A DNA stretch of 64,000 bases from Methylotenera sp. (GTDB taxonomy: Bacteria > Pseudomonadota > Gammaproteobacteria > Burkholderiales > Methylophilaceae): assembly GCA_021732365.1 (NCBI GenBank), contig JAKFVD010000017.1:1-64000 (forward strand), written 5' to 3'. Positions within the stretch are counted from its first letter, which is position 1, and each line of letters begins with the position of its first letter. Shown in pieces: positions 6,740 to 35,515 of this stretch. The translations under genes and the position numbers were made by a program. Under the pieces are notes generated by a model. That model was given only the letters and a program-made list of their open reading frames with translations. It had not been told where the DNA came from and made no database searches.

Positions 6740-8016
6740 AAATTCATATCAAAAATGGTCATGTGATTGACCCTAAAAATAAGATTGATGCTAAACAAGA
6801 TGTTTATATTGCCGCTGGCAAAATTGTGGGTATTGGCAACAAGCCTGCCGACTTTGCCGCCAATCACACGATTGATGCCGCTGGCTTAATTGTAAGCCCA
6901 GGGTTTGTGGATTTAAGCGCGCGTTTACGCGAACCTGGCTCTGAATATTCGGCTACTTTAGTGAGCGAATTACATGCCGCCGCCGCAGGTGGAGTGACCA
7001 GCCTTGCCTGCACGCCAGATACGCAACCCGTGTTAGATGAGCCAGGTTTGGTTGAGATGTTAAAACATCGTGCCAAGCAAATTAATCTTGCCCATGTATA
7101 TCCACTTGGTGCGTTAACGCGACAGCTGCAAGGCAAGTTGCTAACGGAAATGTGTAAATTGACAGAGGCAGGCTGTGTAGGGTTTAGCCAAGCCGATAAT
7201 GCGATTACCGACACCCAAGTGCTATGGCGCGCTTGCGAATATGCCGCTACGTTTGGCTATACCTTATTTTTGCGTGCTGAAGACGAGTATTTGGCAAGAA
7301 ACGGCGTTGCACATGATGGCGAAATGGCCAGCAGACTGGGCTTAAAAGGTATTCCAGCCGCGGCAGAAGGCTTAGCAATCGCCAGCATTTTACGCATTGC
7401 GCTAGAAACCAATACCAAAGTACATTTGTGCCGATTATCGACTGCTGAGGGCGTTGCCTTGGTACGTGACGCCAAAAAACAAGGCATAAAAGTCACTTCG
7501 GATGTCAGCGCACAGCACTTGCATTTAACAGATTTTGATATTGGCTACTTTAATACCCATGCCAACTTAAAACCGCCCCTACGCACCATGCGCGATAAAG
7601 ATGCCTTATGTGCTGGCCTAAAAGACGGTACCATTGATGCTGTTTGCTCTGACCATACACCCGTAAATGAAGACGCGAAATTGCTACCTTTTGCTGAGGC
7701 TGAAGCAGGCGCAACAGGCTTGGAGCTATTGCTGCCATTGGCACTAAAATGGGCTAGCAATCATAAACTATCAGTAGCTGATGCGATTGACAGAATCACC
7801 ACACAGCCAGCCGCTATATTGGGTATAGCAGGCGGCAATCTTTCAGTAAATAGTGATGCAGATATTACGATTTTTGACCCAGAACAAGTATGGACAGTCA
7901 CACCAAGTCGATTAGTCAGCCAAGGTAAAAATACACCCTTTTTGGGTTTAGAAATGATAGGTAAAGTGCAATACACGCTTTTACACGGACAAATCACTTA
8001 TCAAGCGCGTCATTAA
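6736..8016 (+). CDS. Dihydroorotase homologue PyrC' (probably catalytically inactive)
   Basis: Class I dihydroorotase fold, 426 residues, but the metal site is gone. The family HxH in D-L-H-x-H-L-R-E-P-G reads [10 protein letters not shown] (59-68). The His of the usual 'H-x-E-D' segment is Arg in LRAED (179-183), and the second His of the 'H-x-x-H-x-S-T' segment is Arg in VHLCRLST (229-236). SDHTPV (305-310) remains. Such PyrC' proteins are structural partners of PyrB in pseudomonads, and a true dihydroorotase must be encoded elsewhere. Translation starts at a TTG overlapping the pyrB stop, suggesting coupling and matched subunit amounts. Confidence 0.92.
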
Positions 8017-28610: not shown

Positions 28611-30914
28611 ATGACAACAATAAACATTAAAGCCCATATCCTGGGTTATCCACGCGTAGGCGCGAAACGTGAATTGAAATTTGCCTTGGAATCGTTCTGG
28701 CGCAAAGAAACGACATCGGATCACTTACAAAAAACGGCCGCAGAGTTGCGCAAAACGCATTGGCAAAAGCAACAGGATGCCGATTTAGCTTTTATTACTA
28801 GCAATGATTTTTCGTTATACGATCATGTGCTAGATCACACCGTTTTATTTGGCGCGCAACCAAAACGCTTTACCAAGTTACCTTTTGGTGAAAAGAGTAT
28901 TTCTGCCGAAAACGCCTATTTTTCACTGGCACGCGGTAATTTAGAGCAGCCTGCAATGGAAATGACCAAATGGCTGGACACCAACTATCATTACATCGTG
29001 CCAGAATTAAACCAGGACACGCAGTTTTCAATCAATGCGCATGATTTTTTAAGCCAGATAGATGAAGCTTTAGCGCGCTCAAAAAACGTTAAGCCTGTGC
29101 TACTTGGCCCAGTCAGCTTTCTGTATCTGAGCAAAGCGCGTGGTGTTAATAAATTAGACTTCTTAGATAGCCTGGCGGAGCAGTATGCTTATTTATTGCA
29201 GGAACTGCATACTAAAAAAATTGAATGGCTACAAATTGACGAACCGATTTTTGCGCTGGATCTTGATGATGCCTGGCTAAAAGCGTTTGAGCGCGCTTAT
29301 GCGCATTTTCGTATTTCGCATTTTCTTACTGGGCGCCCAAAATTATTGCTGACGACGTACTTTGCTAATGTATCGCGCTATCAAGGCTTTATTACACAAC
29401 TGCCGATTGATGGCGTCCATATCGATTGCGTACGCGCGCCAGAGCAATTAGGGCCGTGGGTCAATGCTATTCCTAGCTATTGGGTATTATCAGCTGGCGT
29501 CATCAATGGCCGCAATATCTGGCGTACCGATTTAGATAAAGCACTAGCCCTTTTACAGCCATGGGTACAAAGGCTGGGTGAGCGCTTATGGCTTGCGCCT
29601 AGCTGCTCCCTGCTACACACTCCAGTGACGCTTGCGCATGAAGTGAATTTAGATACAGAGATTAAATCCTGGCTAGCATTTGCCGATGAAAAATTAGAAG
29701 AGTTGCGTATTATCACCAGTGCTTTGAATAATGGTACTGATTCTGTTGCAAACGAATTGGCGATATCGCGGGCGGCAATTAGTGCGCGCCATCATTCATT
29801 GCGCGTTCACAATATCGATGTGAAAGAGCGCATCAAAGATCTGGTCAACGTGAATGAAAACCGCACAAACAAATTTGATAATCGCCAGATCATTCAGCGT
29901 GCACGCCTGAATCTACCCTTATTGCCGACTACAACGATTGGCTCCTTCCCGCAAACACCTGATATCCGCGCCAGCCGTGCTGCCTTTAGAAAAGGTGAAA
30001 TCAGCCAGGCCAAATATGATGCCGATATGGAGTCGCACATTGCTTATGCCATTAGCCAACAAGAAGAAATTGACCTGGATGTATTGGTGCACGGCGAAGC
30101 CGAACGCAACGACATGGTGGAATTCTTTGGCGAACAATTGGCAGGTTATGTGTTTACGCAAAATGGCTGGGTGCAAAGTTATGGTTCGCGCTGCGTCAAG
30201 CCGCCTATCATTTATGGCGATGTACACAGACCAAACCCAATGACAGTTGATACGGCACGTTTTGCACAATCGCTGTCGAAACGCCCTGTAAAAGGCATGC
30301 TAACTGGCCCCATTACCATGCTGCAATGGTCTTTTGTGCGCGATGACCAAACACGCGAAAGCACTGCTTTGCAACTGGCGTTAGCGATACGTGATGAAGT
30401 GGAAGATTTGCAAAATGCAGGTATCGCGATTATCCAGATTGATGAACCCGCCTTACGTGAAGGCTTACCATTACAGAAATCGGCTTGGGCACATTATTTG
30501 GGTTGGGCAGTACGCGCATTCAAGCTGTCAGCCAGCGTAGCGCGCGACGATACGCAGATTCATACGCACATGTGTTATGCAGAATTTAACGATATTTTGC
30601 CAGCGATTGCTGCGATGGATGCCGACGTAATTACCATTGAGACATCGCGTTCTGCTATGGAGTTGCTGGATGGTTTTGGTGAATTTTCATACCCAAATGA
30701 AATTGGCCCTGGCGTTTATGACATTCATTCGCCACGTGTGCCAAGCATTGAAGCAATGGAAAAACTAGTCAAGCGCGCCTTTGAGGTGATTCCCGCAGAA
30801 CGTTTGTGGATTAACCCAGATTGCGGCTTAAAAACGCGCGGCTGGGATGAAACGAAATTGGCTTTGCAAAATATGGTGACTGTGGCTAAAAAATTGCGGG
30901 TGCAATTGGCTTAA
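28611..30914 (+). CDS. metE: Cobalamin-independent methionine synthase
   Basis: A 767-residue 5-methyltetrahydropteroyltriglutamate-homocysteine methyltransferase. The N-terminal barrel starts HILGYPRVGAKRELKFALESFW. The catalytic C-terminal barrel carries TTTIGSFPQTPDIR, VHGEAERNDMVEFFGEQLAG and the zinc-binding segments HMCYAEFNDI and NPDCGLKTRGW. The AAGG ribosome site is 7 bases before ATG. It probably needs MetR activation via the adjacent box; no cobalamin riboswitch precedes metE itself. Confidence 0.97.
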   Translation: MTTINIKAHILGYPRVGAKRELKFALESFWRKETTSDHLQKTAAELRKTHWQKQQDADLAFITSNDFSLYDHVLDHTVLFGAQPKRFTKLPFGEKSISAENAYFSLARGNLEQPAMEMTKWLDTNYHYIVPELNQDTQFSINAHDFLSQIDEALARSKNVKPVLLGPVSFLYLSKARGVNKLDFLDSLAEQYAYLLQELHTKKIEWLQIDEPIFALDLDDAWLKAFERAYAHFRISHFLTGRPKLLLTTYFANVSRYQGFITQLPIDGVHIDCVRAPEQLGPWVNAIPSYWVLSAGVINGRNIWRTDLDKALALLQPWVQRLGERLWLAPSCSLLHTPVTLAHEVNLDTEIKSWLAFADEKLEELRIITSALNNGTDSVANELAISRAAISARHHSLRVHNIDVKERIKDLVNVNENRTNKFDNRQIIQRARLNLPLLPTTTIGSFPQTPDIRASRAAFRKGEISQAKYDADMESHIAYAISQQEEIDLDVLVHGEAERNDMVEFFGEQLAGYVFTQNGWVQSYGSRCVKPPIIYGDVHRPNPMTVDTARFAQSLSKRPVKGMLTGPITMLQWSFVRDDQTRESTALQLALAIRDEVEDLQNAGIAIIQIDEPALREGLPLQKSAWAHYLGWAVRAFKLSASVARDDTQIHTHMCYAEFNDILPAIAAMDADVITIETSRSAMELLDGFGEFSYPNEIGPGVYDIHSPRVPSIEAMEKLVKRAFEVIPAERLWINPDCGLKTRGWDETKLALQNMVTVAKKLRVQLA

Positions 30915-30984
30915 TTAAAAGTCTTTATAAAACCTTTATAAAACATAGATATAGAAAATATTATCAATATATAGTGTTTTTATG

Positions 30985-31014
30985 TTGAACTTTCGCTTTA
31001 TATTGCGTTATAGT
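30985..31014 (+). promoter_or_regulatory. Putative sigma-70 promoter of the riboswitch-nrdA transcript
   Basis: TTGAAC at 30985 and TTATAG at 31008 are separated by 17 bases. Transcription would start close to the first base of the riboswitch P1 helix (31018). Confidence 0.55.
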
Positions 31015-31017
31015 GTG

Positions 31018-31291
31018 GTCACACGGTTCTTACGTTTTAATCAAAATGTAAGATAAAAGGGAATATGGTGCGCTGTTTAATTGACTTAAACAGCAATGCC
31101 AAAGCTGCCCCCGCAACTGTAATCAGCGAGTTATTTTGTGCTTATTTGCCACTGACAAGATGTTTAAACATCAACTTGGGAAGGCTAACGAAATAATGAT
31201 GACCTGAAAGCCAGGAGACCTGCCGTGTGACTTTTTTGCGTTCTTATTTGAAGCAAAACTATTTTTATAACGTTTGAGGCGGGGTGTCCTC
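31018..31291 (+). promoter_or_regulatory. Cobalamin (B12) riboswitch
   Basis: All conserved landmarks appear in order: GGGAATATGGTG (around 31061-31072), GCCCCCGCAACTGTAA (31107-31122), GCCACTG, GGGAAGGC, and the B12 box AGCCAGGAGACCTGCC (31209-31224). A nine-pair closing P1 helix joins GTCACACGG (31018-31026) to CCGTGTGAC (31223-31231). A downstream hairpin GAGG-(CGGGGTGT)-CCTC (31276-31291) exposes CGGGG, which is complementary to CCCCG at 31109-31113. This fits the kissing loop of this class. It lies downstream of metE and directly upstream of nrdA, so it should lower nrdAB expression when B12 is plentiful. Confidence 0.95.
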
Positions 31292-31388
31292 GGCAGATGG
31301 AAGTGCGCTTTTTTTAACGCCACTTCTCTTGCTGGTCTTTAATTGTTCTGGAGTTGTTCTGAATTTAGAGCCATTTAAAGCGTACCTG

Positions 31389-31404
31389 CCCTTTATTAAA
31401 AGGG
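31389..31404 (+). promoter_or_regulatory. Hairpin sequestering the nrdA ribosome-binding site
   Basis: CCCTTT-ATTA-AAAGGG forms a six-pair stem whose 3' arm holds the Shine-Dalgarno AGGG, 9 bases before the nrdA ATG at 31413. It is a plausible translational expression platform for the riboswitch. Confidence 0.55.
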
Positions 31405-31412
31405 AAATTCAC

Positions 31413-34214
31413 ATGGATGATATTCGACCATCTGCTACCGATGTATCGTTGCCGACGCTACAAGTCATACGCCGTAACGGCGCGGCGGTAGAATTTAATT
31501 TAGACAAAATCGCTATTGCGATCACCAAAGCATTTTTGGCGGTAGAGGGCAATCAAAGCGTCGCTTCTGCGCGCGTGCGTGACCAAGTGGCTATCTTAAG
31601 CCAGTTAGTGAACAACGCATTGATGCGCCGCTTACCTGCTGGCGGATCCATTCATATTGAAGATATTCAAGACCAGGTTGAATTAGCGCTGATGCGTAAT
31701 GGCAACCACGATGTAGCGCGTGCCTACGTGCTTTACCGTGAAAAACGCAATGCAGAACGCACGGCTGAAAAGGCGATTACAACTGAACCTGTACATACGC
31801 TGAATGTGAATATTGACGGCAAATTAACACCGCTTAATATTGCGGAACTCAACAAAATGGTGGCTGAAGCCTGTTTGAACTTAGGAGATGCAGTCAGCCC
31901 AAGTCTAGTGGTAGAGCAAGCTGTGCGTGATTTATACGATGGCATTCCATTTACGGAAGTCTATAAAGCGCTGATTTTATCTGCCCGCAGCCTGATTGAA
32001 ACGGAGCCAGCATACAACTACGTAACGGCACGTTTGCAATTAGACTTAGTGCGCGCAGAGGTTTTGGGCGAGCGCGTCAGCCATGCGGATATGGACGGGC
32101 ATTATGTAGATTATTTTCCACGCTACATCAAAACAGGTATTGATGCAGAACTGCTAGACCAGCGCTTAGCCCAATTCGACTTAAACAAACTCGCAGCCGC
32201 ACTCAATAAAGACCGTGATTTTCAATTCGGCTATCTAGGCATTCAAACTTTATACGACCGCTACTTTTTACATATTGAAGAGCGCCGTATTGAGCTACCG
32301 CAAATCTTTTTTATGCGCGTAGCGATGGGCTTAGCCATCAATGAGATTGACCGTGAAGCACGCGCAATCGAGTTCTATAACGTATTGAGCACATTCGACT
32401 TTATGAGCTCGACGCCTACCTTATTCAACGCCGGCACTTTGCATTCACAACTATCAAGTTGCTACCTCACGACAGTCAATGACGATCTTGAGGGCATCTA
32501 TCAAGGCATTAAAGAAAACGCGCTGTTGCAAAAATATGCAGGCGGACTGGGCAACGATTGGACGCCAGTGCGCTCTTTAGGCGCACGTATCAAAGGCACT
32601 AACGGCAAAAGTCAGGGTGTAATTCCCTTCTTAAAAGTAGTGAATGATACGGCTGTAGCCGTTAACCAGGGCGGCAAACGCAAAGGTGCTGTTTGTGGCT
32701 ACCTAGAAACCTGGCATTTAGATATTGAAGAGTTTTTGGATTTACGCAAAAACACCGGCGATGACCGCCGCCGTACGCACGACATGAATACTGCACACTG
32801 GATTCCAGATTTATTTATGCGTCGCGTGACAGAAGCTGGCGATTGGACATTGTTCTCTCCTTCTGACGTACCAGACTTGCATGATAAATATGGCAAAGCA
32901 TTTGAAACCGCTTATGTGGAATATGAGCGCCGCGCTGAGAACGGCGAAATCAAACTATTCAAGAAAATCCCTGCCCTGCAAATGTGGCGCAAGATGCTTT
33001 CTATGCTGTTTGAAACTGGCCATCCATGGATTACATTCAAAGACCCATGCAATATTCGTTCACCTCAGCAGCATGTGGGCGTGGTGCATAGTTCAAACCT
33101 TTGTACGGAAATCACACTCAATACTTCAGACACTGAAATCGCCGTTTGCAACTTGGGCTCTGTGAACTTATTGCAGCATTTAACCGAAATTAATGGCAAG
33201 TTAGTGTTAGATAACGACAAATTGCAAGCTACCATCAAAGTGGGCATGCGCATGCTGGATAATGTAGTGGATATTAATTTCTACCCTGTTGGCAAAGCAC
33301 GTAATTCCAATACACGCCATCGCCCAGTGGGCATGGGAATTATGGGCTTCCAGAATTGTTTACATGCAATGCGAATCCCTTACGCCAGTATGGAAGCAGT
33401 GGAATTTGCTGACCGCGCGATGGAAGCGGTTTGTTACAACGCCTACTATGCTTCTACTGTGCTAGCAGAAGAACGTGGGCCTTACTCAAGCTTCAAAGGC
33501 AGCTTGTGGGATCAAGGTATTTTGCCCTTAGACACATTAGACTTGTTGCTATCTGAACGTGGCGGCAATGTAGAAGTGGATAGAAGCAAAACGCTGGATT
33601 GGGATGGCTTGAGAACCCGCATTCAAAAAGTTGGCATGCGCAACTCTAATTGCGTGGCGATTGCACCGACGGCAACGATTTCCAATATCGTCGGCGTATC
33701 GGCCAGTATTGAGCCAGAATACCAAAACTTATACGTCAAATCCAACCTGTCTGGCGAATTTACGATTGTGAATGAGCAACTAGTGATTGACCTGAAAGCG
33801 CGCGGCTTATGGGATACCGTGATGGTATCTGACCTGAAATATTTTGATGGCTCATTACAGAAAATCGACCGCATACCAGCGGATTTAAAACAGCTTTATG
33901 CTACTGCGTTTGATGTTGACCCAACATGGCTAATTGAAGCTGCTGCCCGACGCCAGAAATGGATAGATCAAGCGCAATCGCTGAATCTGTATTTTGCAGT
34001 GCCATCAGGTAAAAAATTAAACGACACTTATTTATTGGCTTGGCAACGCGGCTTAAAAACCACGTATTACCTGCGCTCACTTGGCGCAACTGCGGCTGAA
34101 AAATCAACAGGTACTGGCGGTGAATTGAATGCAGTTTCGGCTGGCAGCAACGCGCCTGAAGAGGCGCCGAAAATGTGTTCGATTGATAATCCAGAATGCG
34201 AATCTTGCCAATAA
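31413..34214 (+). CDS. nrdA: Ribonucleoside-diphosphate reductase large subunit, class Ia
   Basis: Reduces ribonucleotides for DNA synthesis; 933 residues from the ATG at 31413. That ATG follows AGGGAAATTCAC, and the open frame extends 129 bases further only through leader sequence. It has an N-terminal ATP-cone (LQVIRRNGAAVEFNLDKIAIAI) and a second cone-like segment near 130-210. Catalytic-core segments NLCTEITLNTSDTEIAVCNLGSVNL and GMRNSNCVAIAPTATISNI are present, as is the redox-active C-terminus CSIDNPECESCQ. It is followed by nrdB. Confidence 0.96.
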   Translation: MDDIRPSATDVSLPTLQVIRRNGAAVEFNLDKIAIAITKAFLAVEGNQSVASARVRDQVAILSQLVNNALMRRLPAGGSIHIEDIQDQVELALMRNGNHDVARAYVLYREKRNAERTAEKAITTEPVHTLNVNIDGKLTPLNIAELNKMVAEACLNLGDAVSPSLVVEQAVRDLYDGIPFTEVYKALILSARSLIETEPAYNYVTARLQLDLVRAEVLGERVSHADMDGHYVDYFPRYIKTGIDAELLDQRLAQFDLNKLAAALNKDRDFQFGYLGIQTLYDRYFLHIEERRIELPQIFFMRVAMGLAINEIDREARAIEFYNVLSTFDFMSSTPTLFNAGTLHSQLSSCYLTTVNDDLEGIYQGIKENALLQKYAGGLGNDWTPVRSLGARIKGTNGKSQGVIPFLKVVNDTAVAVNQGGKRKGAVCGYLETWHLDIEEFLDLRKNTGDDRRRTHDMNTAHWIPDLFMRRVTEAGDWTLFSPSDVPDLHDKYGKAFETAYVEYERRAENGEIKLFKKIPALQMWRKMLSMLFETGHPWITFKDPCNIRSPQQHVGVVHSSNLCTEITLNTSDTEIAVCNLGSVNLLQHLTEINGKLVLDNDKLQATIKVGMRMLDNVVDINFYPVGKARNSNTRHRPVGMGIMGFQNCLHAMRIPYASMEAVEFADRAMEAVCYNAYYASTVLAEERGPYSSFKGSLWDQGILPLDTLDLLLSERGGNVEVDRSKTLDWDGLRTRIQKVGMRNSNCVAIAPTATISNIVGVSASIEPEYQNLYVKSNLSGEFTIVNEQLVIDLKARGLWDTVMVSDLKYFDGSLQKIDRIPADLKQLYATAFDVDPTWLIEAAARRQKWIDQAQSLNLYFAVPSGKKLNDTYLLAWQRGLKTTYYLRSLGATAAEKSTGTGGELNAVSAGSNAPEEAPKMCSIDNPECESCQ

Positions 34215-34390: not shown

Positions 34391-35515
34391 ATGCTTTCAT
34401 TTGAAGATGAAGTTTACGTAGAGCCAGCTGCACCAAAACTGGCATTAGTAGCCGAAGCCAAGCTCGTATCGACAGCGGCTAATCAACCATCCATCTCAGG
34501 CCGCGTAAACGCCTCTGATAAGCGCATGATTAATGGTCAAACAGATGTAAATCAACTCGTGCCGTTTAAATATCATTGGGCTTGGGATAAGTATTTAGCC
34601 GGTTGCGCAAACCATTGGATGCCGCAAGAAGTATCAATGAGCCGCGACATTGCGCAATGGAAAGATAGCACTGCATTAACTGACGATGAGCGTTTGATTG
34701 TAAAGCGTAACCTGGGGTTTTTTACCACTGCAGATTCACTGGCAGCAAACAATATCGTGCTAGGCACTTACCGACATATTACAGCGCCAGAATGTCGCCA
34801 ATACTTGTTACGCCAAGGTTTTGAAGAAGCGATTCATACCCATGCTTACCAATATATTGTGGAAAGTCTGGGCTTGGATGAGTCTGAGGTATTTAATGCT
34901 TACCAAGAAGTAGCCAGCATTAAAGCCAAAGATGATTTCTTGATTCCATTTATCAATATCCTGACCGATCCAGACTTTAAAACTGGCACGCCAGAAGCGG
35001 ATCAACAGTTACTACGCTCTTTGATTGTGTTTGCCTGCATCATGGAAGGCTTATTTTTCTATGTCGGCTTTGTGCAAATTTTAGCCTTAGGCCGCCAAAA
35101 TAAGATGCAAGGCGCTGCAGAGCAGTATCAATATATTTTGCGTGACGAATCCATGCACTGTAATTTTGGTATCGATGTGATTAATACGATCAAGTTAGAA
35201 AATCCGCATTTGTGGACAATGCAATTTCGCGAAGAAATAAAAGGCTTGATCCAGCACGGCGTGGAATTGGAATATCAATACGCAGAAGCTACTATGCCAC
35301 GCGGTGTATTGGGTTTAAACGCTACCATGTTTAAGGAGTATCTGCGTTTTATCGCTAACCGTCGTTGCACGCAGATCGGCCTAGATGTGCTGTACCCAGG
35401 GGCTACGAATCCGTTCCCATGGATGAGTGAAATGATGGATTTGAAAAAAGAGAAGAACTTTTTTGAAACCCGCGTGACGGAATACCAGACAGGCGGTGCT
35501 TTAAGCTGGGATTAA
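34391..35515 (+). CDS. nrdB: Ribonucleoside-diphosphate reductase small subunit, class Ia
   Basis: A 374-residue ferritin-like subunit that houses the diiron-tyrosyl cofactor. Metal-ligand segments include [32 protein letters not shown] and [16 protein letters not shown]. The C-terminal tail [18 protein letters not shown] resembles the NrdA-docking end. A ribosome site (AAAAGGAAAA) precedes ATG. It lies 176 bases after nrdA, across the REP-like pair. Confidence 0.96.

Follow-up and report, generated by a model that had tools for sequence, protein, structure and literature searches.

A conserved cobalamin riboswitch upstream of the class Ia reductase genes nrdAB in a family of methylotrophic bacteria probably acts on translation

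Introduction

Which gene is served by the cobalamin riboswitch located between metE and nrdA, at which level would it act, and why should a ribonucleotide reductase that is independent of B12 be placed under B12 control? These questions are raised by a locus in the window, i.e. the whole stretch of 64,000 nucleotides analyzed here. The B12-isozyme circuit of nrdAB and nrdJ is of an already known kind, with Propionibacterium acnes as one example and Streptomyces as the classical case. In P. acnes, a cobalamin riboswitch is present in the 5′-UTR of nrdAB, together with a single nrd-box at the promoter and an nrdJ gene without riboswitch (PMC3848588), while for Streptomyces nrdABS, control of class Ia nrd genes by coenzyme B12 via a riboswitch is given by the title of Borovok et al. 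2006, as cited in PMC5962746. In E. coli btuB and in env8HyCbl, a kissing loop between L5 and L13 stabilizes P13 and promotes a ribosome binding site (RBS) hairpin blocking translation, and precedents are known in which a P13 stabilized in this way promotes either an RBS hairpin or a terminator (PMC10653944).

In this study, we analyzed the nrdA leader of the window and compared it with the leaders of related genomes. As far as the literature searched shows, the family-wide retention of the switch in methylotrophs, the exchange of the enzyme behind it and a decayed switch in a genome without nrdJ appear to be new, and a literature search of limited reach found no published report for this methylotroph family.

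Materials and methods

The window is part of a draft genome of 2.5 Mb in 35 contigs, with a completeness of 99.98%. All coordinates given for the window refer to the + strand. For the survey, 130 genomes of the same family were used, in which matches to PF02867 and RF00174 were compared by coordinates. Judged from sequence, both the source genome and the survey set appear to belong to a Methylophilaceae-like family; the nearest named relatives of NrdA are from Methylobacillus (79%), followed by other methylotrophs. G075 and G086, whose PF02867 matches were fragmentary or had low scores, were left out of the counts, and four genomes were checked directly, namely G072 and G083 with PRK07207-type and G100 and G104 with PRK09103-type nrdA, all four of which carry the riboswitch. 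An aptamer tree of 47 nrdA and 27 btuB-type riboswitches was calculated with FastTree. The aptamer, the hairpins, the gene context, their conservation and the decay where nrdJ is absent were all obtained by computation.

Results

The window contains a cobalamin riboswitch aptamer with a peripheral extension (RF00174; 31007-31241), for which cmscan covered the full model (1-189) with 105.4 bits (E 2.3e-25) at a gathering score of 31.5. It is followed by nrdA (31413-34214, ATG at 31413), encoding a class Ia ribonucleotide reductase alpha subunit of 933 aa (NF005544, 1685.6 bits), and by nrdB (34391-35515) for the beta subunit of 374 aa (NF005550, 680.8 bits). Both scores are above the cut-off, and the class Ia assignment of NrdA is given by the NCBIfam equivalog together with the neighboring nrdB. 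On the other side, metE for the B12-independent methionine synthase (28611-30914; NF003556, 1138 bits) ends about 90 nt before the riboswitch, and a divergent gene for a MetR-like regulator is also present. In several relatives, metR-metE is likewise found upstream of the nrdA leader, so that metE is a conserved neighbor; in the window genome it has no riboswitch of its own. The initial annotation had described a complete B12 aptamer directly upstream of nrdA, with nrdA and not metE as the target, and this was borne out by the full-length match. The gene metE does adjoin the switch, but on the upstream side, and it was therefore rejected as the controlled gene.

Upstream of and overlapping with the aptamer, a consensus scan predicted a sigma-70-like promoter (TTGAAC-18-TATAGT; 30985-31014; 9/12) with a start at about 31020. 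Its −10 element TATAGT is located at 31009-31014, and it is the best promoter found by the scan; relatives have similar −35 and −10 letters at the same place, with TTGACA in several of them. A site resembling an NrdR box (TATCAATATATAGTGT; 30962-30977) differs at three positions from ACACWATATATWGTGT. It is the sole such match in the window and, with 1.45 matches expected by chance, not significant when taken alone. However, among 46 nrdA leaders of the family, nearly all have such a site some 45 nt upstream of the aptamer, with a mean of 3.0 mismatches, whereas shuffles give 5.9 and btuB-type riboswitches 5.8. The genome also contains nrdR, and one box could be recognized at the promoter. A further NrdR-like box, GCACAATATGTTGTGT, precedes the ATG of nrdJ by 170 nt. 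Both reductases are thus probably under NrdR, and the B12-independent one alone under B12.

Within the leader, the P1 helix is formed by GTCACACGG (31018-31026) and its complement CCGTGTGAC (31223-31231), which is directly followed by six T, U6 in the transcript (31232-31237), a run whose length is not conserved. Because the −10 of the best promoter is located at 31009-31014 and the start near 31020, the first two nucleotides of the 5′ strand may not be transcribed. Of the P1 with nine pairs and six T that had been annotated, the letters are present, but perhaps only about seven pairs would be transcribed. The L5 loop, the kissing-loop partner (31108-31113), reads CCCCCG in 46 of the 47 nrdA leaders, with TCCCCG as the only deviation. 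Behind the aptamer, the P13 hairpin GAGG-CGGGGTGT-CCTC (31276-31291; arms 31276-31279 and 31288-31291) exposes the L13 sequence CGGGG (31280-31284), which is complementary to L5. The resulting five contiguous pairs, CCCCG with CGGGG, are nearly invariant in the 47 leaders, as is the hairpin itself: the P13/L13 block TTTGAGGCGGGGTGTCCTC is identical in 44 of them, and the other three have single-base variants. The spacing between the block and the aptamer end ranges from 6 to 84 nt, and that to the start codon from 115 to 296 nt. The conservation of L5 and P13/L13 goes beyond chance. Directly before nrdA, the hairpin CCCTTT-ATTA-AAAGGG (31389-31404; arms 31389-31394 and 31399-31404), supported by folding and by relatives, includes the Shine-Dalgarno (SD) sequence AAGGGA (31400-31405), which ends 7 nt before the ATG. 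Of 26 dereplicated leaders, nearly all have the SD within a local hairpin, although with different arms (CCCUUU/AAAGGG, GCUUCC/GGGAGC, GCUCCU/AGGAGC and others), and the local folds at the SD are more stable than those of dinucleotide shuffles (mean z −1.1, SE 0.2). Thus, both annotated hairpins, the GAGG/CCTC hairpin displaying CGGGG complementary to CCCCG in the core and the CCCTTT/AAAGGG hairpin hiding the nrdA SD, were recovered and found to be kept among relatives, the latter with changed arms. The minimum free energy fold of the whole leader does not by itself reveal a switch, and a terminator scan found none.

The genome encodes a second, adenosylcobalamin-dependent reductase of class II, nrdJ (L005, 3398-5563; TIGR02504, 566 bits, cut-off 400), accompanied by a separate gene for a C-terminal partner, so that class Ia nrdAB and its B12-dependent isozyme occur in the same genome, as they do in the family survey. 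No RF00174 match was found before nrdJ or before its partner gene. The only other cobalamin riboswitch of the genome precedes genes for a BtuB-related TonB receptor, a membrane protein, bluB and cobU, with cobT/cobS-like genes adjoining, which is a cluster for B12 uptake and salvage. The genome also contains metH.

Across the 130 family genomes, 47 of 48 class Ia nrdA genes are preceded by RF00174. For nrdA of the PRK07207 type, the riboswitch is found immediately upstream and in the same orientation in 27 of 27 cases, and the PRK09103-type nrdA (767 aa, equivalog), present in 21 genomes, has it in 20. In each of the 47 genomes with the switch, PF02867 matches at least twice, and wherever the second match is listed it is nrdJ. 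Where a family genome contains only nrdJ, there is no nrdA on which the switch could act. Among the matches listed for relatives of the same order, no nrdA riboswitch was found. In one of these (G056; L160, C3:93601-93812), a cobalamin riboswitch with the same kind of L13 (GGGCGGGGTGTCCC) lies before nrdD for the class III reductase. Further single observations were made in the course of the survey. In G024 (L159, C11:1005566-1005976), the nrdA aptamer is split by an insertion of about 200 nt flanked by the inverted repeats GTGGCTAACAAAACTC ... GAGTTTTGTTAGCCAC, similar to a MITE, and still scores 61 bits. In G104 (L165), metR, metE and nrdA are each found in two frames, which suggests sequencing errors or decay. 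In G145 (L166, C1:1576082-1577557), there is an extra reading frame of 1018 aa for a reductase large subunit, and no cobalamin riboswitch was found within the 8 kb taken.

The two NrdA types are distant from each other, the PRK09103-type protein being only 28.5% identical to NrdA of the window. In the tree, nrdA and btuB-type aptamers are fully separated (support 1.0), and leaders of both NrdA types are intermixed within the nrd group, with 27 + 6 leaders in a clade of 33 leaves (0.92) and 10 + 6 in a clade of 16 leaves (0.96). Both types also share P13, which differs from the btuB-type P13 ACCGCGGGGTGACGGT, and both are found behind metR-metE. In the simplest reading, nrdA was apparently replaced in place behind a retained riboswitch; a possible alternative is that the leader was moved by recombination.

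The sole nrdA of the 48 without riboswitch is of the PRK09103 type and belongs to G079 (99% complete), in which nrdJ was not found: there is one PF02867 match, and the only TIGR02504 signal is weak and due to cross-matching with nrdA itself. In its genus mates G024, G067 and G088, both nrdJ (562-573 bits) and the riboswitch are present. Rfam finds no cobalamin riboswitch upstream of nrdA in G079, where a remnant of the leader is left, in which the promoter, the NrdR box and the beginning of P1 are still present. The core of the aptamer is gone, and the P13/L13 block has changed from TTTGAGGCGGGGTGTCCTC to TTTGAGGCAAGGTGTCTTTC, so that L13 reads CAAGG instead of CGGGG. Such decay would be expected if B12 repression of the sole ribonucleotide reductase had turned harmful, with G079 as a single case. 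Because the neighboring metE is also truncated, the switch may have been lost in one local decay event. Near this locus, a fluoride riboswitch was detected (RF01734, 51.8 bits; L161, 67-147).

Discussion

We consider it quite probable that a repressing cobalamin riboswitch controls translation of nrdAB, the genes of the B12-independent class Ia reductase. With abundant B12 coenzyme, the aptamer would bind it, CCCCG of L5 would kiss CGGGG of L13, and P13 would be held closed. In this bound state, the CCCTTT/AAAGGG hairpin would cover the SD of nrdA and nrdAB would be off, so that the cell would depend on NrdJ, the class II enzyme requiring B12. When B12 is lacking, P13/L13 would be freed and the ribosome site would open, possibly because GGCGGGG of P13/L13 then pairs with the C-rich strand on the 5′ side of the SD hairpin. 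The NrdR box at the promoter would add control by the dNTP level. Ligand binding, the direction of the response, the translational level, the action of NrdR and the anti-sequestor pairing are what we infer from this anatomy. Translational repression is favored because the SD hairpin is conserved, no terminator-like site was found and the U-run after P1 varies; the translational OFF control proposed initially, with B12 bound and P13/L13 docked, is therefore the best-supported reading, also given the nearly invariant P13/L13, the presence of nrdJ and the decay of the switch in the genome without nrdJ.

How L13 docking would be coupled to an SD hairpin about 100 nt away was addressed by pairing and folding analyses, which make pairing of L13 with the anti-SD strand a working hypothesis for the transmission route. 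In many leaders, GAGGCGGGG, comprising the P13 5′ strand and L13, finds its complement in the SD hairpin, namely in the C-rich 5′ arm (CCCCGCC, CCUCGCUUCC, CCUGCC), with up to 12 contiguous pairs in PRK09103-type leaders. The mean z of this pairing was −0.85 ± 0.20 for 26 leaders. The P13 3′ strand as an alternative partner (GGCAG with CTGCC) reached −0.64 and was set aside as the weaker of two weak signals. In the window itself, the pairing of P13/L13 with the anti-SD strand was not above shuffles (p 0.56), but it beats every other stretch of the leader. When folding was constrained with L13 blocked and P13 closed, mean SD accessibility decreased from 0.28 to 0.19; in the window's leader it hardly moved (0.25 to 0.24).

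Among other explanations, early termination had been offered as a second route by the initial annotation: B12 would stabilize P1, which together with U6 would act as an intrinsic terminator. The arrangement of GTCACACGG and CCGTGTGAC directly before six T in the window, and T-runs of 5-7 behind P1 in many relatives, agree with this. However, leaders with a readable U-run have anywhere between 2 and 7 U, several of them only 2-4, the terminator scan is empty, P1 would have to close over about 200 nt with its first part probably untranscribed, and no function would remain for the SD hairpin and the nearly invariant P13/L13. Termination at P1 and U6 was therefore rejected as very unlikely. For some translational riboswitches, Rho-dependent termination or mRNA decay on the untranslated leader is established. 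Here, such a process, with the SD hairpin as the trigger, could lower nrdAB under B12, in line with an anti-SD hairpin and the absence of an intrinsic terminator; since no specific sequence element points to it, we regard it as unlikely, and it would be compatible with translational repression rather than opposed to it.

That the riboswitch serves metE, or is a non-functional relic with NrdR alone controlling nrdA, is scarcely credible. It is true that metE is close by, often also in relatives, and that an NrdR-like box is present, but a gene upstream of the aptamer is beyond its reach, and there are relatives in which nrdA stays adjacent while metE lies at a distance of 1-4 kb or was not found in the stretch examined. 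A relic is also difficult to reconcile with L5 and P13 being nearly invariant over many genera and with the tie to nrdJ.

Compared with known systems, repression of nrdAB translation as proposed here shares with P. acnes the nrdAB riboswitch, the nrd-box and the riboswitch-free nrdJ (PMC3848588). There, however, transcription appears to end before nrdAB in a terminator-type arrangement, whereas the anatomy of the present leader points to RBS sequestration; moreover, P. acnes has a second cobalamin riboswitch before nrdDG (PMC3848588), and the host here is a proteobacterial methylotroph family. The nrdA leaders differ from E. coli btuB and env8HyCbl in having an RBS hairpin apart from P13, with L13 located 115-296 nt before the start codon, and in their target, which is nrdAB instead of a transporter. 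The metE corrinoid riboswitch of Priestia megaterium is similar in that one strand of P13 acts as switching partner for the output hairpin, but there this hairpin is a terminator, and it is the 3′ side of P13 that serves as partner (PMC10653944), whereas here the 5′ side with L13 seems to be the better candidate, albeit weakly supported.

The circuit is unusually well documented in the present family because it was kept across the family and had decayed in the one surveyed genome that lost nrdJ. Streptomyces reportedly has a class II isozyme, too, and is said to control its class Ia genes at the level of transcription. The likeness, to the extent the cited title conveys it, thus lies in a class Ia nrd under a B12 riboswitch next to a class II isozyme, and the difference in the unrelated lineage and the reported transcriptional control. 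For the methylotrophs, B12 supply would set a whole family's choice between two versions of an essential enzyme, and G079 would represent a natural knock-out and thus an evolutionary test of the isozyme logic. A broader picture can be offered only tentatively: the switch, of a single ancestral nrd lineage, may be the stable part and the enzyme the replaceable one, swapped to a distant type perhaps more than once, with the switch discarded upon loss of the B12 isozyme. In addition, L13 may pair with L5 in the presence of B12 and with the anti-SD strand in its absence. The well-separated docking and ribosome-site hairpins should be useful for studying how kissing-loop formation reaches the ribosome site, a step described as open in PMC10653944.

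Observations on the btuB-type leaders concern the same structural elements. Several of them (L006 complement, about 7696-7850; L043, L046, L049, L053, L055, L062, L039, L047, L036) have, besides the P13 ACCGCGGGGTGACGGT, a second hairpin with a GGGGT or GGGGA loop (CACGCGGGGTCGCGTG, CATGCGGGGTCGCATG) just before the SD, the stem of which varies on both sides and which is possibly a second partner of L5. In the btuB-type leaders of L006 and L043, CGGTATTCCT is complementary both to AGGAAATACCG, located upstream of P13, and to the SD AGGGATA, by eye a clear pair of sequestor and anti-sequestor.
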